A stretch of 24,424 bases of DNA from a virus, in IMG/VR virus record IMGVR_UViG_3300007775_000024, positions 1-24,424 of that record, one strand, 5' to 3'. Position numbers and translations under genes: made by a program. Of this stretch, positions 1,359-20,715 are shown piece by piece. The notes beneath the pieces were generated by a model. It had not been told where the DNA came from. It worked only from the letters and a program-made list of their open reading frames with translations, and did no database searches. The stretch's first letter is position 1. Every line of letters starts with the position of its first letter.

Positions 1359-3868
1359 TGTGCTGCCTCAAACATTTTACCTAGGTCGGGAAGCCGTTGA
1401 GCAGCGCCGCTGCCCGGCTTGGAAAAGAACTGCTGGCTACGCTCCTTATAATACTTGCGCTCCATGTCACTGAATTGCCGCTCAGCCTTGGGGTCAAGGA
1501 GCCGATCCAGATTATCGAAGATCAGCCGCTCGAGCGCCAGCCTGGCATACCAGGTGGTATGACCTGGCATATTCTGAGTGGTGAACCGGGCCAGCTCACG
1601 GCCAGCATTCGTATCCTTGCCTTCATAGAGCTGCTGGATATTACCCAGGGTAAGCCCACCAACCTGCGGCAGGAGACCCCATACAGGTCCCAGGAGCGTG
1701 TCTAGAGACGACCCGTACTTAGACTGGTCAGCCAATAAGGTATCGCCCAGGAGGCCAAATGAACCGCCCCTGACCAGGGCCCTACGCCAGAAGCCACCAG
1801 AGGCAAAGCTCTCCGGGTCTCGGCCACGGCTGATACTAGTGAGCTGCTCCCCCAGGGCGCCGATGGCTGTCATACCCAAGAAGAGCCAGGCCGCATACTC
1901 AGCTTTGGTCTTGGGATTGGCCTCAGACATCAGGCGCATCCAGTGGGTAGCCTGAATAGTGATGGGGAAGCTCTTGAAGACAGCCGTGTTACGCATGACC
2001 TCACCCCAAAAGGTACCGGCAGGCAAGCCATAGGTGAACATTGCCCGGACCCTGGCATTGGATGAGGGGATCGCATACTCCAGCTCTCGGGCCAGCATGG
2101 TCTGCACCTTGTTGCCGACCTCAAATCGCCGTCCTTCGAACGTGTCTCCTAATACATCCTCCGGTCGGATGAAGCTAGCGCCGCTATCCGGATGGTACCA
2201 TTGGGGCGTATTACGGAAGATATCCCAATCCTCCGGCGTGATGCCATGCGTGCTGAATAGCCGCTGGGTCTCTGGCTTAAGCTGGTCGAACCCCTTGCCA
2301 GCCTCTTGGGTTAGATAGGACAGCATCTCGACCGAATTCCCAAGGCGTCCGGCCTCAGTCCAAGGCGAGAGCCATGCTAGCCGCAGGGCTGTATCAGCCA
2401 GAACCTCAGTCCAACGGGAACCTACAGCTTCGCCCAGTACACGCTGGGACTGAATGGCCCGGGAGGCCCAACCCTCTACGCCAAAGCCCAGGTTGGCCGC
2501 CAGAAGACGGTCCTCTGTGCTATTAGTGGCGAACATGTGTATCACGCGGCCTAGGGCACGCGTCGGGGAAACACCATTCATCCGATGGGTCACGCCAGCC
2601 GTCACCGTATCTGCAATGGCTGCAAACCAGGAGCCACCCAGGGCCGATGCAGTCATGATAGAGCGAACGTCTGCGCTGATCTGAGACCATTTAGAATTGG
2701 CTGTGATGCCGGTACGACCGGACACAGTATTATACAACGCCCGAAGATGGACCTTAGGCGAGCCCAGTTTATCAGCCGCTTTACTGCCTAGCTTTCCAGA
2801 CTTAGAGATGGCATCCTCACCAAACCCCTTATCGATCAGTTTCTCCATATAGCGGACAGTAGCTTCCGGGTAAGGGCCTAGAACTTCCAGCATAGCCGTG
2901 TCACGGGCCATGCGGTCCATCCCAGTGATGATGTTCTCGTAGATATTACCCGTCCCGAACTTCTTCTCATAGGCCAGCCAAGCGTCGCTATCGCGGAACA
3001 CTAGGAACCGAGAATTAGCACGCTGGTTGATGTTCGAGGCTAGGAGTTTAGGACCAGGCGGGCCGGCCTTCATGTCAGACAAGCCGCGAGTAACGATACT
3101 ACTGTAGATCTGTTTGAGCTGCTGGTCCAGGAGGTTTGGGTTAATGGGCAGGCCATTGACATCAGTCATTCGGTCCATAGCCAGGTTGGCCTTGACGAAA
3201 TCCATCCACTCCTGTTCGCTTACAGCCGCTATCCGTACGGGGTCATGCGACTGGAACCAGCCCCAGTCCTCACGGTAAGGGATATCACCACCGGCCGCAT
3301 TATAGCGCTGCCGAGCATACTCAGTTGCACGGGTGAGCTGCTCCGCCAAGAGCTTGGCCTTCGGGTTACCTGTGTCCCGACCATACTTACCAAACTTCTC
3401 ATGGATCATCGGCTCGAGATTAGATAGGTCGCGATGGAAACCCGCATACGTAGAGCGGAATGCCTTGTAAACCTCTGACATCTTAGCTTGGTAGAGCTTA
3501 CGGAGCGCTGACGTACGGCTCTCAACATCCGCTAGGTGGCCAAAACGCCGGCGAAAATCCGGTGACAGATAGGCCATGACCAGTTTATCAACAGGCTGGC
3601 CAGCATCCCGGGCGATCTGGTATTCACGATCCAGCCCCTCTAGCACGCGCTTATGCTGGACTGCCATGCGCTTCTTGCGGGAGAGATTCTGCGTCTTCTC
3701 CTTCAGTAGGCGCTCGGCCACGAGGCGCTCATCCGCTGGGGTCTTAATATGACCACGCCCTCGAGCCTCCTCAACCCGATCCTGGATCTCCTTGACCAGC
3801 TTCTTAGCCTTAGACTCGGAGACAATGCCCTCAGCCGCCTTCATTAGCAGACAGGTATCAATGGCCAT
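1355..3868 (-). CDS. Large internal virion (ejection/core) protein, 837 aa
   Basis: This 837-residue, mostly helical protein has a basic, charged N-terminal 100 residues. Its middle (about 400-450) holds hydrophobic or amphipathic stretches, including IMTASALGGSWFAAIADTVT, and residues 640-720 are Gly- and aromatic-rich (AAWLFLGMTAIGALGEQL). I see no catalytic signature. Its start overlaps the stop of the 606-residue protein by one base (TAATG), and its own stop overlaps the fibre start (ATGA). Its place after a gp14-like protein and a lysozyme-bearing core protein, and before the fibre, is where T7-like phages encode the large proteins of the inner core that are ejected into the cell envelope with the DNA. 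The assignment as an ejection protein is inference from size, composition and order. Confidence 0.7.
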   Translation of the reverse strand: MAIDTCLLMKAAEGIVSESKAKKLVKEIQDRVEEARGRGHIKTPADERLVAERLLKEKTQNLSRKKRMAVQHKRVLEGLDREYQIARDAGQPVDKLVMAYLSPDFRRRFGHLADVESRTSALRKLYQAKMSEVYKAFRSTYAGFHRDLSNLEPMIHEKFGKYGRDTGNPKAKLLAEQLTRATEYARQRYNAAGGDIPYREDWGWFQSHDPVRIAAVSEQEWMDFVKANLAMDRMTDVNGLPINPNLLDQQLKQIYSSIVTRGLSDMKAGPPGPKLLASNINQRANSRFLVFRDSDAWLAYEKKFGTGNIYENIITGMDRMARDTAMLEVLGPYPEATVRYMEKLIDKGFGEDAISKSGKLGSKAADKLGSPKVHLRALYNTVSGRTGITANSKWSQISADVRSIMTASALGGSWFAAIADTVTAGVTHRMNGVSPTRALGRVIHMFATNSTEDRLLAANLGFGVEGWASRAIQSQRVLGEAVGSRWTEVLADTALRLAWLSPWTEAGRLGNSVEMLSYLTQEAGKGFDQLKPETQRLFSTHGITPEDWDIFRNTPQWYHPDSGASFIRPEDVLGDTFEGRRFEVGNKVQTMLARELEYAIPSSNARVRAMFTYGLPAGTFWGEVMRNTAVFKSFPITIQATHWMRLMSEANPKTKAEYAAWLFLGMTAIGALGEQLTSISRGRDPESFASGGFWRRALVRGGSFGLLGDTLLADQSKYGSSLDTLLGPVWGLLPQVGGLTLGNIQQLYEGKDTNAGRELARFTTQNMPGHTTWYARLALERLIFDNLDRLLDPKAERQFSDMERKYYKERSQQFFSKPGSGAAQRLPDLGKMFEAAQ

Positions 3869-5688
3869 TAGGCGCCTCCATTAAGACAATTGAGGAGCTC
3901 ATCGTAGAGTTTCTTATCGGAGTCCAATGCCTCCTTAAGCTCTGTGAAGGTACCAGCAAAGGTTGTCCCGTCCTCATTGGTTAATTCAATCTGACGGTCT
4001 GGGGTCTGTTCCACAGCCGCTGCCAGTTCCTCCTCAATACGCCCCTCATCCTTGACCGCTTTTTCGATCTCGGGGTCGATGGTCAGGGCATCCTGAGGGG
4101 TGTGATCGATATTATCCATGTAGTGCCATGGGGCCAGCGGGCTGGCCGCCTGGGCATCCTGACGCATACGCGCGCCCAAATCTGCCATAAAGCCAGCCAG
4201 ATCCTTGGTGCCTTGGTCCCATACGGTATTGGCTATGGCGGCCTTCACCGGGGCCGAACTATCGCCAATAGCCAGACGTTTGGTCTTCTTGACCAGCCGC
4301 TTCGTCTGCCGCTCTAGCTGCTTCTGCTTTTTCTGGAGAGACTTAAACTCATCCTTTAGCTTACCTTTCTCTTCAGCCAACCGCACTTGTGCACGGGCAG
4401 CACGGAGTTCTCCCCCGCCTTTGATATCGGCTTCACGGAGCTTGCGTTCAACCCTCTGCAACTTACGCCGATTAGCTGTGCTACGCCGAGCCTCGGACAG
4501 ACGCTTCTGCTCGTGACTAAGCTTTAAGTAGTCAGCCAGTTTACCGGTATCTCCCAGTGGAGTGGCAGCCTGCTCGATCTCAATCGCTTTGAGCCGGTTG
4601 TCGATTTCCGATGTACGCTGGACCGTCTGATCCAGCTCTTGGAAGAGAATAGGGTCGGACTGCCGGACCCGCGCTACATACTCATCGAGCGTCTCGCCGG
4701 CATTAATCACCGGCAGGTCCGGTCTTACGTCCTGGGGTAGCACACGGCCTACTGCGGTAGTCGTATTGTAGTAGGTGCTGCTAGCCTCAGGTCGCGCAAG
4801 ATTGTACATGGCCTCGTCCAATCGGCGGACGTGCTCCATGCGCCCCGGGATTGTATCCGGGAAAGGATTGTGTTGCTCCATCTCCATTTGACGCTCAAGG
4901 AGCTTCTCAGCCACCTTGACCTCATCAGTACGGAGATGCTTAGGAAGTTCTTTACTACGACGTATGAGTGAACGTACCCCCCATACGCCACCATGGATGA
5001 CACCTGTCAGGATGCCAGCACCGGCGCCTGCGGACAGCACAGCCGTGGCTGCGTCGTAAAAGCTCGGCTGCTCACCCGGGATTTGGGAACGGGTGGCTTG
5101 CACGGCAGCTTGCACACCCACTTCAGAGCCGGCCCCAATTAGCGCCTGGGTCAGGACATTACGAATAAAGCCCTGGGCAGCACCGCCTCCGAATGCCATA
5201 CTGCCCAAGACTAGCGGGTCCGTCATAGCCCCGCCAGCGCCACCGAGGAAAGAGGCTGCGGCATTGCCGAGCCCAGTCTCACGGCTGGCTACTTCAGCGC
5301 GGCGATCCCGGACATCCTTCCGGGACTTGGCAATATCTGCCAGCAATCTCTCGTGGTCAATCTGCGGAAGGGCCGGGTACTTCCCCCGCAGGTTCTTGAC
5401 TTGCTTAAACCAATCCGCGATGTTGAACTCGAACGCCCCCGGAGCCTCAGCAGCGAAGGGTCCATTACCATCCAACGGATTAGGCAGTACCTCACCAGTC
5501 AACTCCCGAATGCGTTTATTATAGGAGCTGAACTGGTCGTACTCCATATTATGGAAGGCGAAGGACGTCTCCGTCTGAGCCATGAGATCATACGAGGAGC
5601 GCAAGCTCTCGCCCATACTGGCCGGGAAATAAGGCGCAGCATTAGCGAAAGCAGTACGATCCTGGTTCGTTTTATCGAATAGGCTCAT
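3868..5688 (-). CDS. Internal virion protein with hydrophobic segment and basic coiled coil, 606 aa
   Basis: The 606 residues fall into three parts. The N-terminus is soluble. Residues about 138-240 are rich in Gly and Ala with long hydrophobic runs (AAASFLGGAGGAM, AVLSAGAGAGILTGVIHGG) that could insert in a membrane. A long charged helical region at about 340-480 has a Lys/Arg/Gln-rich coiled-coil core (KKQKQLERQTKRLVKKTKRL). The C-terminus is acidic. It joins both neighbours by TAATG overlaps, which implies coupled, near-equal expression. A protein that combines a membrane-active segment with a long coiled coil, next to the virion lysozyme, fits the inner-core proteins that form the DNA translocation channel during ejection. 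I do not recognise a named family. Confidence 0.7.
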   Translation of the reverse strand: MSLFDKTNQDRTAFANAAPYFPASMGESLRSSYDLMAQTETSFAFHNMEYDQFSSYNKRIRELTGEVLPNPLDGNGPFAAEAPGAFEFNIADWFKQVKNLRGKYPALPQIDHERLLADIAKSRKDVRDRRAEVASRETGLGNAAASFLGGAGGAMTDPLVLGSMAFGGGAAQGFIRNVLTQALIGAGSEVGVQAAVQATRSQIPGEQPSFYDAATAVLSAGAGAGILTGVIHGGVWGVRSLIRRSKELPKHLRTDEVKVAEKLLERQMEMEQHNPFPDTIPGRMEHVRRLDEAMYNLARPEASSTYYNTTTAVGRVLPQDVRPDLPVINAGETLDEYVARVRQSDPILFQELDQTVQRTSEIDNRLKAIEIEQAATPLGDTGKLADYLKLSHEQKRLSEARRSTANRRKLQRVERKLREADIKGGGELRAARAQVRLAEEKGKLKDEFKSLQKKQKQLERQTKRLVKKTKRLAIGDSSAPVKAAIANTVWDQGTKDLAGFMADLGARMRQDAQAASPLAPWHYMDNIDHTPQDALTIDPEIEKAVKDEGRIEEELAAAVEQTPDRQIELTNEDGTTFAGTFTELKEALDSDKKLYDELLNCLNGGA

Positions 5689-8423
5689 TAGTTAATTCCC
5701 GGTATCTGTCCAGTCCTAATGACTTCCACGTTCCGTTTACCGCGGTTCTTCACCTGCTTGTACCACTGGCTATCCTTAGCCGCCTTAGCAGCCAGGTTCC
5801 AGTCCTTATTGGCCACGGCCGCCAACATATCATGGAAACCGCTCAGACCGTCCGCACCAAGGTTGAAGGCCATATCAGTGAAAACCACCTGACGGGCCCG
5901 ATCGAGAGAAGCGAACCCGGGTACGATATTGGTAGCCTCTCGGCGGGCCTGTTCGTACTGGGTCTGATAAATGGCCGTGGCATCGGCAGGTGTTATCTCC
6001 TGCTTGCCCGCCAGCACAGCATCGTAGTTATAGCCATATGCCTCAATCGTCTGTTTGGCATCTGGCCTATTCAGATTGAACCCAATTCCGATAGTAGGCA
6101 CACCGCCGCTATCCTTGTAGACCTTGGTTGGTATGCCGTCCTTCGTATTATATTCAGCGCTGGCCGTGAACATCTTAGAGACGCTAAGCGGAATATCTAC
6201 CGGCGCCGTCTCCTGCGGAGGCACCGTAACCAAGCCCTCCGGCGGCGTGATAGTCTCCGGTGTGCTAATAGTGCCGGCACCGCCGGGGCCAACTAGGTAA
6301 CTATCCGGTAGCTGTAGTCCCGGCGGTACCTGAAGCCCGCTGTCTATGATCTGCCGTAGGTTCAGTTCATAAGGTGCTGATCCGTCAGAATTGAGCACAT
6401 AGCCCAAATGCGGGATCATGATCTGGTAGGTGCCGTTCATACTGTTGGAGACTAAATGGGCTTCCGAACTCCAGATACTTGATTGCAACATATCGACCGT
6501 GAAGTCATGCCCATTGGTAGTCTTGGGCAACTCGCCAGTGGAGTCCATCAGGTCTTGATTACGCAAGGCGCTCATGATCCGGTTCATGTCATCCTGCGTC
6601 ATATCAGGATAGGCTGGGAGGATCTGCTGTCCATTATGATCAACGAACCCGCCCATAATATCCGTGACGGTCTCACGATAAAGCTGCGGATTAAAGTCCT
6701 GGGCCCCATTCTGCTGGGCCCGGATAGCATAGAGACCGTCAGCAGCCGCTAGGATATCACCCTGCGCCTGCGCCGTGTCCTTGGTGAAGAAGTTACCGAA
6801 GACCGCTGCGCTATTCTCTAGCTTATCCCGATCACCCGGCTTATACTGCGGGTTCTCCAGCAGGAACCGCTGGCCCCTAAGAATATCCTGAGCCAACTTA
6901 GGCCGCTGGTTGCTGACTTGTAACGCCAGGGCCAACTCGGGATGCTTCTTCTCGATGGCATCCTTTACTATGAAAGCAGCCCCGTCTTCACCAAAGGCAG
7001 CCTGTGCATTAGCCAACATAAGGCTGACATCTTCCAAGGCCGGAGGCGTGGCTGAACCCTCACCTGTGACCTGGTTAATGAAGTCCGTAACGTCGGACTG
7101 CGTAAGCGGTAATACTGTGGTGCCGTAAGCCTCAGACGCTACATCGGCCATATGGGAACGCTGTAGCATAGCCGGGAGATCCCGGTAATCGAGAGGCTTA
7201 AGCGGCGGTACAATGCTATTGTTCGCTGCCACTTGGAGCCCGTTACCCTTAGCAAACTCCCGGGCATTGTTATTATAGGACTCGTTGAGATACCGAAGCT
7301 GCCGGCTCTCATCCAAGCTAAGACGTGCATTGGGATCAGGGGAAGATGCTCTAGCTCGGAAGGCAGCTATGACCTTCCCCTGCTCCGCAATCGGCTTCTT
7401 ATTGAACGCCGATACCACAGCCTGGTCCCCGACGGCATCTACCAGATCGAGGCGCAGGTTATCTAATGATTTGTCTACGTTCATAGGGATAGCATCTACG
7501 GCAGCCTGGGTCTCTGCCAGGTTGTCCGGAACAGCGCCAGAACGGAGAGATTTAATCGTCTCCCGGACCGTCCGCTTCACACCTGAAGCCGTCGCTGATG
7601 TATGCTGGGCAATCTTGTTTAGAATGTCTGTTTGCGTGGGGCCATCGATCTCGCCTTCATGCGCCTGGTAGTAAGCCATAGCACCGGTGAAATCTCCACC
7701 AGCTAGAATACGCTCGACAATACCCTGGTGCGCTAGTGACAGCGCCTCCTGCATCTTACTATCGATTACCTCCTGCGTGGCTCCCTTGTCTCGCTGATAG
7801 GTTTCGACCTCGGCACGCATCGCTGCAATATCCCGGTCACGTTGCTCGGGATCATTATAATGGGCAACGGCATTATCACCGAAGTCTTTGATACGGGCCT
7901 TATGGGTGTTGTCGTTGGCTACTACCGACTGGGCCTGGAAATGCCGGCCCACAACTTTCAATTCGCTATCCATCCGAGCGGCCGACGCCTGGTTGAACAT
8001 AGCAGCGATCTTCGGATTACCTGCTCGACCAGCTATGGAAGTACGGGCTTCCTCAAGCGCCGCCATAACCTCGGGCCTAGCTTTGACGGCTGCCTCGCCC
8101 CGAAGACCATAATAGCCCGGGTTCTCAGGCGTACCATCTCCATACATGAGATCACGAATACGCTTGGAATACGATATATCGAGCTGCTTGGCCTCGCGCT
8201 CATTGGCCATAATGAGATCATTAGTAGCCGCCTGCACAAGCACATCGCTGAGCTGCCGCCCACCCTGAGCTAAGTCCTGGGCAGCCCGGCCAACCCCAGC
8301 CCCAAAGTTCTCCGGAGTGACGCCTCCTGGATTAGAGAAGGTCGCGCTGGGAACCGCCTCACGGGGCGGCAGAATGCCGGTACCGCCGAGGCCGAACTGA
8401 TCGGGGCGTGGAATGCGTGCCAT
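5688..8423 (-). CDS. Internal virion protein with C-terminal GH24-type (T4-like) lysozyme domain, 911 aa
   Basis: I place the start at the ATG at 8423 (protein begins MARIPRPDQFG), because AAGGA lies 8 bases upstream and this start avoids the preceding gene; the open frame runs back to 8555 but that extension overlaps it. Residues 1 to about 730 are Ala/Gln-rich and helical with no recognised fold. Residues about 751-911 resemble GH24 lysozymes: DGIPTKVYKD (762-771) followed by T777 and GIG (779-781), then VVFTDMAFNLG near 847-857. Such a domain in a core protein lets the phage cut peptidoglycan as DNA is ejected. Compared with T4 lysozyme, Asp20 and Thr26 have counterparts (D771, T777), but the catalytic Glu11 position appears to be Asp (D762), and the His31 position is Phe782. 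Activity is therefore uncertain; E757 nearby is an alternative. Confidence 0.85.
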   Translation of the reverse strand: MARIPRPDQFGLGGTGILPPREAVPSATFSNPGGVTPENFGAGVGRAAQDLAQGGRQLSDVLVQAATNDLIMANEREAKQLDISYSKRIRDLMYGDGTPENPGYYGLRGEAAVKARPEVMAALEEARTSIAGRAGNPKIAAMFNQASAARMDSELKVVGRHFQAQSVVANDNTHKARIKDFGDNAVAHYNDPEQRDRDIAAMRAEVETYQRDKGATQEVIDSKMQEALSLAHQGIVERILAGGDFTGAMAYYQAHEGEIDGPTQTDILNKIAQHTSATASGVKRTVRETIKSLRSGAVPDNLAETQAAVDAIPMNVDKSLDNLRLDLVDAVGDQAVVSAFNKKPIAEQGKVIAAFRARASSPDPNARLSLDESRQLRYLNESYNNNAREFAKGNGLQVAANNSIVPPLKPLDYRDLPAMLQRSHMADVASEAYGTTVLPLTQSDVTDFINQVTGEGSATPPALEDVSLMLANAQAAFGEDGAAFIVKDAIEKKHPELALALQVSNQRPKLAQDILRGQRFLLENPQYKPGDRDKLENSAAVFGNFFTKDTAQAQGDILAAADGLYAIRAQQNGAQDFNPQLYRETVTDIMGGFVDHNGQQILPAYPDMTQDDMNRIMSALRNQDLMDSTGELPKTTNGHDFTVDMLQSSIWSSEAHLVSNSMNGTYQIMIPHLGYVLNSDGSAPYELNLRQIIDSGLQVPPGLQLPDSYLVGPGGAGTISTPETITPPEGLVTVPPQETAPVDIPLSVSKMFTASAEYNTKDGIPTKVYKDSGGVPTIGIGFNLNRPDAKQTIEAYGYNYDAVLAGKQEITPADATAIYQTQYEQARREATNIVPGFASLDRARQVVFTDMAFNLGADGLSGFHDMLAAVANKDWNLAAKAAKDSQWYKQVKNRGKRNVEVIRTGQIPGIN

Positions 8424-9045: not shown

Positions 9046-9500
9046 CTCTTATATATCTCAAAACGGTGAAAGGGAATGCCTTCAGGTCCGAGGGGCTCCG
9101 GCGGCCGGATGTCCGCCCCGCACCATTGGAGCCAGCGGATCGCATCAGTGTACCGACTGTCCACATAGTTGGTCAGTAAGTCATAGTGCTCCAGCCAGTG
9201 GTTAATTAACTTCCGGCTGGCGAGAGCGAACCAGTAATGATTACCCTCTATTTTATCAGTCGAGAGCAGCCACGGCCAAGCAACGCCAGCCCACTTCGGA
9301 TCAGGGTCACAACCGAACATAGCCACCACTTTTCCATTAGCCAGGAAGACATGGTGTCCATGCTCAACACCGCGCTTAGCAACTTGCAAAGGCGTGAGGC
9401 CGAGAGCTTCGACCTCTGCGCGATCTGTCTTGCGGATATGTTTTGCCAGCTCCCGCGCGTGCTTCGGCATGGCCTTAACAATCTCACGCTTAACCGTCAT
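9042..9500 (-). CDS. T7 Gp13-like virion assembly protein with GNAT-like fold, 152 aa
   Basis: This 152-residue protein resembles the phage Gp13 family, distant relatives of GNAT acetyltransferases. The central HHVFLANGKVVAMFGCDPD and GVAWPWLLSTD look like the beta-strands of that fold, and the ending IRWLQWCGADI..FHRFEI is like the last strands. In T7, gp13 is needed for correct assembly of the internal core, and genes of this family usually sit just before gp14-like genes, as here. The start at 9500 has GGAGG six bases upstream and overlaps the end of the nozzle gene by 11 bases. Enzyme activity should not be assumed. Confidence in the family is good, lower for function. Confidence 0.75.
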   Translation of the reverse strand: MTVKREIVKAMPKHARELAKHIRKTDRAEVEALGLTPLQVAKRGVEHGHHVFLANGKVVAMFGCDPDPKWAGVAWPWLLSTDKIEGNHYWFALASRKLINHWLEHYDLLTNYVDSRYTDAIRWLQWCGADIRPPEPLGPEGIPFHRFEIYKR

Positions 9501-10884
9501 CCTCTACCTCCAACTCCGGAGCCACGGCCAAGACGGTCAGTGGAACCGGATCTTTCATCCGGATCGCAATCCGCCCGTGCGTGTTCCACTTGGGTGGGAT
9601 ATTCTGAACCCTGTCACCAGTCAGCAGCGCGGTCGGTTGGCCATAGGCTTCATTCTCACGCTGTTTGATCTGAACCATGTCTTCGAAGTTGGGACCAATG
9701 AGCGGCATCCGGGACTTATGGAAGCGAAGCGTCACGTCGGTGAGCTTCTTCCGTCCGCCCTGGATAGTACCTTTAGGCGCTTCGATATTGAGCGTCTCGA
9801 TATCGGCTGTATAGGGAAGGCCGATATGCGCCCTGGCAGCCAGCCGGGGCAAAGTCACCACGCCATCACAGACTTCCACCTGGATAACGTCACCATCTAC
9901 TAACGCATAGACCGGAGTACAACCTGTGCCGAACCACCAGAGACCCGTGATCTCTTTAGTAGTTAGGCGAGCCACACCACCCGATACATAAGTGAATGAG
10001 GGACAGGTTGCGACAACACCGCAGCAAGGCTCATTGGTGTCTTGGGCTCCTAAGTCCCACTGATAGATAAAGGGTGTGTTATTTGAACCCGCGCCTTCGC
10101 CTACATGCCAGAGCTTATTTACACATGCAGCTAAGCAAAATAGATCACTATCAGTAGTAAAGCTCTCATCAGCCGTAAGGTTATAACTATCAGCCGGTGT
10201 GGTGTTTATAGTTGTAATGTCATATGCTGTGCCAAAATCCAACTCAAACATCAAACGATTAGGTGAGCTGAATTGCGCGGTAATCAGTTTTGTACCGTCA
10301 TTAGATACACGGAAAGTTGTACCATAAGTGATACCAGTTACACTATTGATAGCAAAACTATTTCCCGTATAACTTAGAGATGTGATATCATAGGCGGCAC
10401 TAGCATCAAACTCATAGATGTTAGGGAATGTCCCATATGAATAGAACTTCGCACCATCATTAGCCCATGACCAAGCATAGCCAGAAAAGGTCCCAGTAGT
10501 CCCTGATAGATCAACCGTGTTGGTCAAGGACAGCGTAGTGACATCCCAGGCTATACCGAAGGTGTACTCCTTCATCTGATTGTTGCCAGTACCGCTGGCA
10601 TTATCATTTAGCCAGAGCGTTAGCCCATCACAACTTATCCAAATACTACTAGGATGATTGGTCGTATCAAGTCCAGGATCAAACGTATCGACGAATATGG
10701 CTGAACTAATATCATCTGTCGCACTCAGATCATATTGATCGAGTTGCGAAGCACCGTTCAACGCATATAGCCGAGTACCACCATCAGCAACAGCAATAGC
10801 ATTCAAACTACCGCCGGTCAGGGGCGTTTGCGAAGGCCTAATACTTAGGCTGTCATAAGAGAGATCGACTAGGTTCCAACTCAT
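9490..10884 (-). CDS. Second half of split tail nozzle: beta-propeller-like insert fused to nozzle C-terminal domain, 464 aa
   Basis: I choose the ATG at 10884: it overlaps the TGA of the upstream nozzle gene (ATGA) and has GGAG seven bases upstream; a TTG at 10902 is possible but less likely. Residues 2 to about 280 hold repeats of the form DGxKLY...YxFDxxxAYDITSLSY, with anchors near 35, 86, 143, 196 and 246, which suggests a five-bladed beta-propeller. From about residue 295 the sequence returns to the C-terminal part of a podovirus nozzle (tail tubular protein B type): FTYVSGGVARLTT, then ALVDGDVIQVEVCDGVVTL and HIGLPYTADIETLNIE. The segment around 286-340 has six cysteines. The DNA for residues 1-280 is much more AT-rich than its flanks. 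The product probably assembles with the 685-residue N-terminal half to form the nozzle, with the propeller exposed. Confidence 0.75.
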   Translation of the reverse strand: MSWNLVDLSYDSLSIRPSQTPLTGGSLNAIAVADGGTRLYALNGASQLDQYDLSATDDISSAIFVDTFDPGLDTTNHPSSIWISCDGLTLWLNDNASGTGNNQMKEYTFGIAWDVTTLSLTNTVDLSGTTGTFSGYAWSWANDGAKFYSYGTFPNIYEFDASAAYDITSLSYTGNSFAINSVTGITYGTTFRVSNDGTKLITAQFSSPNRLMFELDFGTAYDITTINTTPADSYNLTADESFTTDSDLFCLAACVNKLWHVGEGAGSNNTPFIYQWDLGAQDTNEPCCGVVATCPSFTYVSGGVARLTTKEITGLWWFGTGCTPVYALVDGDVIQVEVCDGVVTLPRLAARAHIGLPYTADIETLNIEAPKGTIQGGRKKLTDVTLRFHKSRMPLIGPNFEDMVQIKQRENEAYGQPTALLTGDRVQNIPPKWNTHGRIAIRMKDPVPLTVLAVAPELEVEDDG

Positions 10885-12938
10885 ACGACCTCTCCAGCGC
10901 AAGATATGGTGAATGTATTAGAAGTGACAGCAATGATCTCGTAGCGGTGGTCATTCAGAAAATCAAGCGGTATCTCATTACCAAACGCGTCAACCTCGAG
11001 CTCCCATATAATATCGGCGAACTCGATCACATCTCCGACCTGATACCCATGGGCATTCGCAGTCGTGATAACAACCGTGCCGCTACTTTCCAGGATGCCT
11101 GTGATCTGCACTTGCGGATCATAGGAAGAGCCCGCATCGATGAAGAAGCCATCCCGCTCATCCGCAAATTTTCGGGTGTGCAGGCGCTCGATTGTCCTAA
11201 TCCAATTGCCATTGACCTTACGCTTTACCACGAAGAAGATCGCATCCTCAACCGAGCTAAGCCCACGCCGGAGGCTGGCCGTGGCCTCAAACAGGCCCTC
11301 GGTGTCCCAGGTGGTCCAAGCAATAACGCCAGCATTCTTGTCGTAGGTCATCGTAAGAATTTGCCCGTCAGTCCGCACGGCAATCAGGCGGGGCTCCGGG
11401 AAATACTGGAAGCACCAGTCCCGCAGGATGTACTCATCAGGCGCGTCATTGGCCAGCATATGCTGAGATAGTGTGTTTAGGTTCTGCCCAGTATAGCCGT
11501 CGATCTGATAGCTAAATCCCATAGTGCGCACTCGCGCATTGCCATTCTCCGCGAAGATGTACTCATCACCCACACGAATAGGGCGGATATGCGAGCAGCC
11601 CCACTGCGACTGCGGCTTGTACTGCTGGGTCAACGGCGAGAAGGCCGCCGCCTGGCCGCCCGAATTGGCACGCCACTCACTACCGCTAGTAAAGATCAGC
11701 AGATCCTCGCCGGCTGCCAGATGCCTGATCTCGTTAACCTCCTGTGAGTTGAGTGTAGCCGTAATGGCGTCATCATCTTGTAAGGGGAACCGGATCGACA
11801 TATTGGTGCGATGGCCGGACTGGCTCGTGTACAGCGTATCTGGTTGGTTCGTAGTCCCGCCAAAGCATAGGCGCTGTTCGTAGTAGGTCACAGCTCCGGG
11901 TTTAGCGTCCGTAGCCGAGAACGGAGTGCGGGAGATCGGAGGTCCATCTAGTGTATCGGGATCGATATTATTGTCGTAGAAGCTACTGTCCTCGGTGGCG
12001 CCGATGAAGCCATATAGACCGTTCTCCTTCCGGTATACACGGTACTGTAACGCAGCACTTGAAGCATCCCAGCTCACGGTATTGGCTGGAGTGGTAGCGC
12101 CTGTGGTCAGAGTGTATTCGCCTACAAGGCTCTCCTCATACGTAAGAGCATTGGTGATAGTCACGCCGTAATAGTAGGTGGTGGCCCCAGCAGAGTCCGG
12201 GGTAGCTGTCACATTGGTGGGAACAGTCTGAGCCGGGGCAAACGTAATAACGTCCAGGCTCCAGACATCGTGGTCAGTGCGTGTCAGATCCCGTGGATCA
12301 TAGTCCGGGTGTACCAACGTCATGGTGTCGGCTGACTGAACGTACTTCAGTTTCGGCAGATCAGCGCTGAGATACGGGGTGGTCAACGTAAAAACACGCG
12401 CGACCGTCCCACCCGAAACGTAGGCCGACCAGCTCGTGCTGTCCACATCCGTGCCAGTGAACTGGTCCTGCAACGTAAAAGTCGTGGCAGTCTTATTGGC
12501 CACGAGGAACCGCCGCTTGTTTACCTCGGTCATACCGACCACGCCCTCGATATAGATCTCATCTCCATTCGAGTAACCATGGGCTGCTGCCGTGGTAACC
12601 TTGGTCATACCAGACTTAGCAATGGTGCTGATGTTCACGGCCGTCTCAACCACATGCCCATCATTCCGGATGACCCGCATATACTGGTCGCCGAATTCGA
12701 GCATATACTCGTCGGTCGTGTTATATTGGAATGGGATCAGCCGAGCATTCTCTTCGGAGTGGTCCTTCAGGGGCCCAATGAACACAGTGCCGGAGCGGTT
12801 AGAAATACCACCATATGTATGGATGATTGTGTTATGGGCCTTACGGAGGGCCTGCCGATACATGTCACTGTCAACCCGCCCATGAAGCTGGGGCGCCACT
12901 TCGCCCTTACTGAAATTGGGCTGGATCAGCTTAGCCAT
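10881..12938 (-). CDS. Tail nozzle protein, N-terminal part (tail tubular protein B-like) with FCCH-like repeats, 685 aa
   Basis: The N-terminus (PNFSKGEVAPQLHGRVDSDMY, here residues 7-27) is the hallmark of nozzle proteins in BPP-1/epsilon15-type and many other podoviruses. These form the distal, hexameric tail tube below the adaptor ring. Residues about 103-157 carry a repeat often annotated as E1 FCCH-like (VTTAAAHGYSNGDEIYIEG ... ATTFTL), and a second copy at about 610-685 (TTANAHGYQVGDVIEF ... NTFTI) runs to the stop. A fibronectin-like segment lies near 240-330 (TNVTATPDSAGATTYYYGVT). GGAGG stands seven bases before the ATG. The protein stops exactly where single-chain homologues would continue. 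The missing C-terminal nozzle domain is found in the next gene, started at an ATGA overlap, so this gene encodes only part of the nozzle. Confidence 0.85.
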   Translation of the reverse strand: MAKLIQPNFSKGEVAPQLHGRVDSDMYRQALRKAHNTIIHTYGGISNRSGTVFIGPLKDHSEENARLIPFQYNTTDEYMLEFGDQYMRVIRNDGHVVETAVNISTIAKSGMTKVTTAAAHGYSNGDEIYIEGVVGMTEVNKRRFLVANKTATTFTLQDQFTGTDVDSTSWSAYVSGGTVARVFTLTTPYLSADLPKLKYVQSADTMTLVHPDYDPRDLTRTDHDVWSLDVITFAPAQTVPTNVTATPDSAGATTYYYGVTITNALTYEESLVGEYTLTTGATTPANTVSWDASSAALQYRVYRKENGLYGFIGATEDSSFYDNNIDPDTLDGPPISRTPFSATDAKPGAVTYYEQRLCFGGTTNQPDTLYTSQSGHRTNMSIRFPLQDDDAITATLNSQEVNEIRHLAAGEDLLIFTSGSEWRANSGGQAAAFSPLTQQYKPQSQWGCSHIRPIRVGDEYIFAENGNARVRTMGFSYQIDGYTGQNLNTLSQHMLANDAPDEYILRDWCFQYFPEPRLIAVRTDGQILTMTYDKNAGVIAWTTWDTEGLFEATASLRRGLSSVEDAIFFVVKRKVNGNWIRTIERLHTRKFADERDGFFIDAGSSYDPQVQITGILESSGTVVITTANAHGYQVGDVIEFADIIWELEVDAFGNEIPLDFLNDHRYEIIAVTSNTFTISCAGEVV

Positions 12939-12941
12939 GTC

Positions 12942-13139
12942 TTAGCCTCCGTATAGTTTATCGGCCTTCGTCTGCTTCTTCTTTTTCTTCTGAAGTGCCT
13001 GCTGCCCTAGAACCTGCTGGAGAACGGAGAGCACTCGTTGAAACGAAGTTGCCTCAGGGCCACCAGGGATGGGCTTGCCGGCGAAGAAGTTGGTGATTGG
13101 ATCTACCGTCTGCTGCGGTGCCTTAGTCTTGACTGGCAT
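12942..13139 (-). CDS. Small hypothetical protein between adaptor and nozzle genes, 65 aa
   Basis: This 65-residue protein is unrecognised. It begins MPVKTKAPQQTVDPITNFF, has a predicted amphipathic helix in the middle (FQRVLSVLQQVLGQQALQ) and ends in a lysine-rich tail (KKKKKQTKADK). It sits in a gap of fitting size between the adaptor and nozzle genes, two bases after the adaptor stop and three before the nozzle start, which supports it being a real gene in the operon. GAGG lies nine bases upstream of the ATG. A basic tail could contact DNA or the acidic tail tube, but nothing in the sequence settles its role. Confidence 0.7.
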   Translation of the reverse strand: MPVKTKAPQQTVDPITNFFAGKPIPGGPEATSFQRVLSVLQQVLGQQALQKKKKKQTKADKLYGG

Positions 13140-19677: not shown

Positions 19678-19923
19678 TTAAAACAAGGCTACAATATCTG
19701 AAGCCGTGGTACTAGTGGAATTAACACGAACACATCGGATCGGAAGGATCGCCCCCGTCGGAACAGCGACAAATGTTATAGCCGTACCGTCACGATCCAC
19801 GGCCACTAGATCACCCCCTGTGCCTACATATAGTCCACGGGTTAGATTATCGCCGTCAATATTAGTCGCATTATCAGGCGTAACTGCGACATATAGATAT
19901 GAAGGATTATTTTGTGAACTCAT
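19678..19923 (-). CDS. Spike-base-like small virion protein (Rcc01079-like), 81 aa
   Basis: The pattern TRGLYVGTGGDLVAVDRDGT followed by FVAVPTGAILPIRCVRV and ending STTASDIVAL resembles a widespread small phage family that includes the head-spike base protein of the Rhodobacter gene transfer agent. The fold should be a small beta-barrel. AAGGAAG lies five bases upstream of the ATG. It sits between a C1q-like fibre gene and a Gly-rich adhesin-like gene, which is consistent with it anchoring one of these to the virion. The family resemblance is from memory of the pattern and not from a search. Confidence 0.65.
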   Translation of the reverse strand: MSSQNNPSYLYVAVTPDNATNIDGDNLTRGLYVGTGGDLVAVDRDGTAITFVAVPTGAILPIRCVRVNSTSTTASDIVALF

Positions 19924-19956: not shown

Positions 19957-20715
19957 TCACGAAATTTTCCGTATCACCACGTTAGCGTAGACTTCACCAA
20001 CACCGTAGGAGCATTGGATGCCCATGCCGTTAGTGCCCTGCGTGGTCTGACACTGATGTTGCAGCTCTAAAACCTTGGTTCCGGCAATCGTAAACCTGCC
20101 GGAGATGAAGCTATCGACCTGTTGCGATGTAGCCGAAGATGTGACGGAATTGGAGCCGGCTATTACGTCAACGCTGTTAGTGATATTGCGCAGTTTGCAC
20201 TGATGCTTGTCCACCCGGTAGCCCGGCGCGCGCGCCTCGATATCGTAGGTTCCGGCAGGAAGGGTGATTTGATTGGATGAAAGCGAAGCGCCCGTGATAG
20301 TGTTGGCGACGGTGATATTCAGCGTACGTGTTCGCCACGCCCCGCTGGTGAAGCCGCCAGCGGGGTTTCCGTCCGCCTGCTGCTCCTGAACATGAAGGGT
20401 GTCAAGGGCGCCGCCGCCTGAAGCTAGCGCAGCTATGGCCTGCGCGACGCGCAGCGCCGTCCAGCGCCGGACGGTGGTAGCGGTCCCGGCCTCCGCCTCG
20501 GCTTGGGAAACTACGCTGACTTGGTTATTGTAAGCGGTCTCGATCTCTGCGTCGCTTTGGTCCGCTGTAGCACCGCTCTCAATGCCATCCAGCTTAGTTT
20601 GATCGGCAGAGGTAAAGATAGTACCTAGTAGGGTTTTTAGTTTACTGATCGATATCGTATCGCTAACGAGGCGCTGGCCGATCTGTCGCTTTATTACAAT
20701 ACGTTGACCAGCCAT
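19957..20715 (-). CDS. Fibre-like appendage protein with C-terminal C1q-like jelly-roll, 252 aa
   Basis: Residues about 34-55 (FTSADQTKLDGIESGATADQ) are a common phage-fibre linker. Residues 60-105 are helical, and from about 110 on (LHVQEQQADGNPAGGFTSGA ... NQITLPAGTYDIEARAPGYR) the sequence fits a C1q/TNF-like beta-sandwich, usual as the trimeric tip of short fibres. The end (YGVGEVYANVVIRKIS) is the last strand. AGGAG stands six bases before the ATG. Two 60-base stretches at 20401-20520 are about 72-73% G+C by hand count, against 45% at 20581-20640, so the middle looks mosaic. Next to a spike-base-like gene, it may be a head spike or a short side fibre. Confidence 0.7.
   Translation of the reverse strand: MAGQRIVIKRQIGQRLVSDTISISKLKTLLGTIFTSADQTKLDGIESGATADQSDAEIETAYNNQVSVVSQAEAEAGTATTVRRWTALRVAQAIAALASGGGALDTLHVQEQQADGNPAGGFTSGAWRTRTLNITVANTITGASLSSNQITLPAGTYDIEARAPGYRVDKHQCKLRNITNSVDVIAGSNSVTSSATSQQVDSFISGRFTIAGTKVLELQHQCQTTQGTNGMGIQCSYGVGEVYANVVIRKIS

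Follow-up and report, generated by a model that had tools for sequence, protein, structure and literature searches.

The window analysed here is the whole 24,424-base IMG/VR virus record IMGVR_UViG_3300007775_000024. It carries, in order, genes for the small and large terminase, portal, protease, major head protein, adaptor, nozzle, internal virion proteins and a lysozyme-like protein, and this is the gene order of a BPP-1-like podophage. The nozzle is encoded by two overlapping genes, whose products we call chain 1 and chain 2, located between the adaptor gene (phrog_394, upstream) and the genes for internal virion proteins (phrog_308 and phrog_418, downstream). A 65-aa ORF lies between the adaptor and nozzle genes (12942-13139, minus strand). 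The features of the nozzle locus are as follows:

10881..12938, minus strand: chain 1, 685 aa, with N-terminal platform strands, propeller core, nozzle insertions and truncated FCCH2
12804..12938, minus strand: expected N-terminal strands of a composite platform, first ~45 residues of chain 1 (placement inferred from T7 gp12, PMC6702177)
12387..12650, minus strand: FCCH1, complete, chain 1 residues ~97-184 (Pfam E1_FCCH 110-182; FCCH profile residues 99-183, 69.3 bits)
10899..11126, minus strand: FCCH2 without its last strand, chain 1 residues ~605-680 (FCCH2 profile positions 2-74 of 104, 47.3 bits)
10889..10895, minus strand: ribosome binding site GGAGAGG within the last codons of chain 1, also found in the related contig L002
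10881..10884, minus strand: ATGA stop/start overlap of chain 1 and chain 2
9490..10884, minus strand: chain 2, 464 aa, ATG start, with propeller-like repeats, last FCCH2 strand and C-terminal platform
10009..10884, minus strand: inserted beta-propeller-like repeats, chain 2 residues 1-~292 (repeat profile of Roseobacter phage CRP-9 gp42)
9958..9996, minus strand: FTYVSGGVARLTT, last strand of FCCH2, chain 2 residues 297-309 (FCCH2 profile positions 88-104)
9493..9954, minus strand: C-terminal platform domain, chain 2 residues 311-464 (8ck1_A 668-824 by sequence and fold)

A preliminary description of this DNA had proposed that the nozzle is split into two polypeptides. When the sequence was re-checked, the ORFs, frames and motifs, the ATGA overlap and the GGAG seven bases before the ATG of chain 2 were all as described there.

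Comparison with the PHROG_376 profile (712 positions) showed that chain 1 covers positions 4-577 (E 3e-136) and chain 2 positions 556-711. The same division was obtained with the 830-aa Carin1 nozzle (8ck1), which chain 1 matches in sequence at residues 11-597 (E 4.5e-80) and chain 2 at residues 668-824 (E 4.5e-20). The AF2 model of chain 1 (pLDDT 86.7, pTM 0.81) gave 8ck1_A as its best Foldseek match (E 1.8e-37), and the top structural matches were all nozzles, namely those of Carin1, LME-1, T7 and relatives. For chain 2, the C-domain was modelled with pLDDT mostly 80-94 and its best structural match was again 8ck1 (E 9.7e-11, 158 columns, 3.3 A). By sequence and predicted fold, the C-terminus of chain 2 is thus the platform, and the nozzle C-terminal domain sits in the next gene, as had been claimed. 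We also looked for the contrary result, a chain 2 C-terminus that does not complete the nozzle fold, and did not find it in the sequence or the predicted fold of the C-domain.

The exact break point could be placed within a domain. Pfam E1_FCCH (PF16190) scores 50.6 bits in chain 1 against a cut-off of 29.5, in two stretches. Of the two FCCH-like domains, the first is complete and the second breaks off after the strand NTFTIS; in the chain 1 model the last strand is at residues 675-679, and residues 682-685 have pLDDT below 50. Seventeen single-chain relatives supplied the FCCH2 domains for a profile of 104 positions, in which chain 1 matches positions 2-74 and chain 2 matches positions 88-104, and the residues between both matches are replaced by the chain 1 end, the stop/start and ~290 residues of chain 2. 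When the FCCH2 pieces of both chains were joined, the score rose to 61.5 bits vs. 47.3 for chain 1 alone, a gain of 14 bits. Chain 2 alone gives a weak match of 2.7 bits, which carries force because of its position directly before the C-domain and its recurrence in a second virus, the IMG/VR contig L002. The chain 2 segment FTYVSGGVARLTT aligns with AYVSGGEVRKMV of the single-chain nozzle ct8d5349. The preliminary description had placed the missing FCCH2 continuation ~295 residues into the next gene, and FTYVSGGVARLTT indeed begins at chain 2 residue 297.

Upstream of this strand, chain 2 consists of repeats resembling a beta-propeller. Four of them match the repeat profile of CRP-9 gp42, a large Roseobacter phage protein, with a full-sequence E of 5e-18 in a two-sequence search, and tblastn against CRP-9 gave E 7e-10. 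The profile matches chain 2 of both viruses. CRP-9 gp42 itself matches SGL (PF08450) with 42.4 bits (cut-off 26.3). Chain 2 matched no Pfam family at E <= 10, and we therefore do not file the inserted domain as an SGL/YbhE-like member; "propeller-like" denotes resemblance only. AF2 gave no usable propeller for the insert, with a shallow alignment and pLDDT below 50 over most of residues 128-301. The insert would be exposed near the fibre-dock position, and its position, divergence and weak similarity suggest that it may bind the host or a fibre.

L002 (IMGVR_UViG_3300037628_000105, 49 kb; L178, L323 and L344 are the same contig) encodes a chain 1 that is 69% identical to that of the window across its full length and ends at the same point, followed by the propeller-like part and C-domain in a second ORF. 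At its junction GGAGAGG lies 7 nt before a GTG start, and the two ORFs share a 4-nt overlap, GTGA, at 8076-8079. Synonymous sites are saturated between the two viruses, which leaves no computable dN/dS for the conserved parts, and we give the proportions pN and pS instead: chain 1 has 0.217/0.75, the truncated FCCH2 0.231/0.905 and the C-domain 0.217/0.811. The low pN across a saturated synonymous distance indicates that both nozzle halves are kept by selection. The propeller-like part has diverged much faster (27% amino-acid identity, pN 0.528, vs. 70% identity for the C-domain). A sequencing or assembly error, the other result named beforehand as counting against a real split, was looked for and not found, and on the evidence of the two sequences the split junction is no sequencing error. 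Splits are rare, and breaks elsewhere in two other nozzles may be errors of this kind, yet two contigs of 69% identity share the junction and its ribosome site, and selection is strong to either side of it, which makes an error or a decaying gene very improbable as an explanation. The two other breaks differ in place from that of the window. In L006 (OM418631.1, phage UFJF_PfDIW6) the annotation divides the nozzle between two overlapping genes (1957-2433 and 2414-4426) after ~158 residues, which is either a real split or a frameshift error; in L032 the nozzle is broken mid-core between overlapping frames (7373-7479), probably by an assembly frameshift.

We also considered whether one polypeptide could be made across the junction. 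Read-through of the stop or a recoded TGA was rejected, as the frame meets its next stop 3 codons on in the window and 1 codon on in L002. A shift of the ribosome into the -1 frame within the short overlap could additionally make a fused nozzle, so that the two-chain products would not be the main form. Tail genes can use such a shift, as in lambda gpG/gpGT, and chain 2 does lie in the -1 frame, which is open before its start for 11 codons in the window and 5 codons in L002. However, no X-XXY-YYZ slippery heptamer was seen by eye in the overlap of either virus, GGAGAGG stands at normal initiation spacing in both, and closely packed genes behind Shine-Dalgarno-like sites are the usual pattern in the window. 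We regard frameshifting as improbable.

To place the split among related nozzles, we used alignments of the N-part and the C-part, together with clade-specific ones, to gather loci from IMG/VR, phage records and genome contigs; the counts rest on the best 80 matches per scan and so describe a sample, no census. Both nozzle parts were found in one ORF at at least 303 loci (at least 273 distinct ORFs). An ORF that has the C-domain but lacks the N-part occurred, among the matches listed, only in the window and the L002 contig. The alignment of homologues thus bears out the view of the preliminary description that single-chain nozzles are the rule and two-chain ones unusual, with L002 split likewise. 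A single polypeptide is the usual, not strictly defining, trait of phrog_376 or gp12-like nozzles, and the two ORFs of the window and L002 depart from it. Nozzles of this family sit in the virion as a hexamer on an adaptor of 12-fold symmetry. In the 273 distinct ORFs listed, the stretch between the N and C profiles measured 0-20 aa in 106, 21-79 aa in 1, 80-110 aa in 145 and 111-200 aa in 21, and exceeded 200 aa in none. Searches with single proteins and junction DNA gave no split nozzle besides L002, the N-chain scan of genome contigs returned nothing, and all 37 loci among the matches listed from the C-domain scan of genome contigs were single-chain. Among the openly available papers covered by a literature search, we found none that describes a split or two-gene nozzle.

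A tree built from the 70 nearest nozzles (midpoint-rooted only; L052 is not included) places the split pair as one clade (100/100) within a clade of single-chain FCCH or nested-FCCH forms (99/95), to which L181, L229, L051, L057, L045, L103, L179 and L180 also belong. Given this nesting in the midpoint-rooted tree, the simplest view is that the split arose from a single-chain nozzle. FCCH2 is intact at the break site in the closest single-chain relatives, including L181, L229, L051 and L057 and the nested-FCCH nozzles L045, L052, L103, L179 and L180. In the latter five, a third, complete FCCH domain lies in frame within the very FCCH2 loop that is broken in the window, which indicates that the loop is an insertion site of its own and tolerates insertions. 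Unlike in the window, the loop of these single-chain IMG/VR relatives is either empty or holds a third FCCH, not a propeller-like domain.

Among known nozzles, Carin1 gp36 (PDB 8ck1) belongs to the same nozzle family by sequence and fold and has its adaptor (connector) gene just upstream, as in the window, but it is one 830-aa chain that lacks the propeller-like insert and has an unrelated domain of ~90 aa at the site. In gene order and nozzle core the window resembles Bordetella phage BPP-1 (nozzle Bbp13, 35.6% identity to chain 1) and BcepC6B (nozzle gp12), whereas each of these nozzles is a single chain in which the site has no insertion. The nozzles of T7 (gp12) and SU10 are of the same fold class as chain 1 (Foldseek) and were absent among its phmmer matches; they build the platform from both chain ends, but of one chain, and neither has a second propeller as its fibre dock. 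T7 gp12 uses its first 45 residues to supply three strands of the barrel that forms the C-terminal platform, with the fibre dock placed between this platform and the end of the propeller (PMC6702177). The SU10 nozzle likewise has a platform with an N- and a C-terminal part and a fibre dock at blade 1 (PMC9509320). In both nozzles the dock is at or near the place of the junction.

These structures explain why chain 2 should belong to the nozzle: if the T7 platform architecture holds here, the platform and FCCH2 would each be two-chain, with the extra domain pointing outward near the fibre-dock position. As an extra domain and a stop/start in one loop divide the nozzle gene in two, this spout of the short tail would have to be assembled from two pieces. 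Judging from the junction, a ribosome that has completed chain 1 would begin again at the ATG in the overlap, downstream of GGAGAGG, and make chain 2 in step with it. Chain 1 would contribute the platform strands of the N-terminus, the propeller core that forms the channel and the larger part of FCCH2; chain 2 would add the propeller-like insert, the strand that FCCH2 lacks and the platform, which would attach to the adaptor ring. The chains would pair without a covalent link, chain 2 completing FCCH2, and the platform sandwich would form from strands of both, by analogy with the T7 and SU10 nozzles. The extra domain would sit exposed at the position of the T7 fibre dock, with host or fibre binding as its probable role. 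We consider it likely that a working two-chain nozzle is made in this way by coupled translation, with platform and FCCH2 each built from both chains; the split genes are known from two metagenomic contigs.

Alternatively, chain 2 could be a separate receptor-binding protein anchored by a nozzle platform, with chain 1 alone acting as a shortened nozzle. The fast-diverging propeller-like domain at the start of chain 2 would suit such a protein. On the other hand, neither the window nor the 49-kb L002 contig contains a nozzle C-domain besides the one in chain 2, all of the intact homologues listed (at least 303) have this domain in the same ORF as the core, and chain 1 ends mid-domain with the missing strand correctly placed in chain 2. 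A separate receptor-binding protein seems to us quite unlikely.

The reading we favour is that of a two-chain form of the nozzle common in podophages, in which the parts are ordinary and the arrangement is not. Since the nozzle restrains pressurised DNA and forms its exit channel, a stable non-covalent version in two pieces would mean that the covalent link between the channel core and the adaptor-docking platform is non-essential. The break marks a loop where a phage nozzle can gain domains, and such a natural split offers a way to dissect the nozzle in the laboratory. Somewhat doubtful, though possible, is the idea that the break itself is useful: the domain at the fibre-dock position would then be a separately encoded and quickly replaced host-binding module, and the conserved nozzle parts would be reunited as strands of the two chains complement each other in FCCH2 and in the platform.

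Two small adjacent genes of the window, remote from the tail genes (19678-19923 and 19957-20715, minus strand), match parts of tail fibre families (phrog_12296; phrog_24210, positions 138-302 of 303). Among the collected loci, Limnohabitans phage DC33 (PQ492659.1, L017) is filed under Inoviridae, yet its 39-kb genome has a nozzle gene of the podophage type, and its taxonomy looks wrong.
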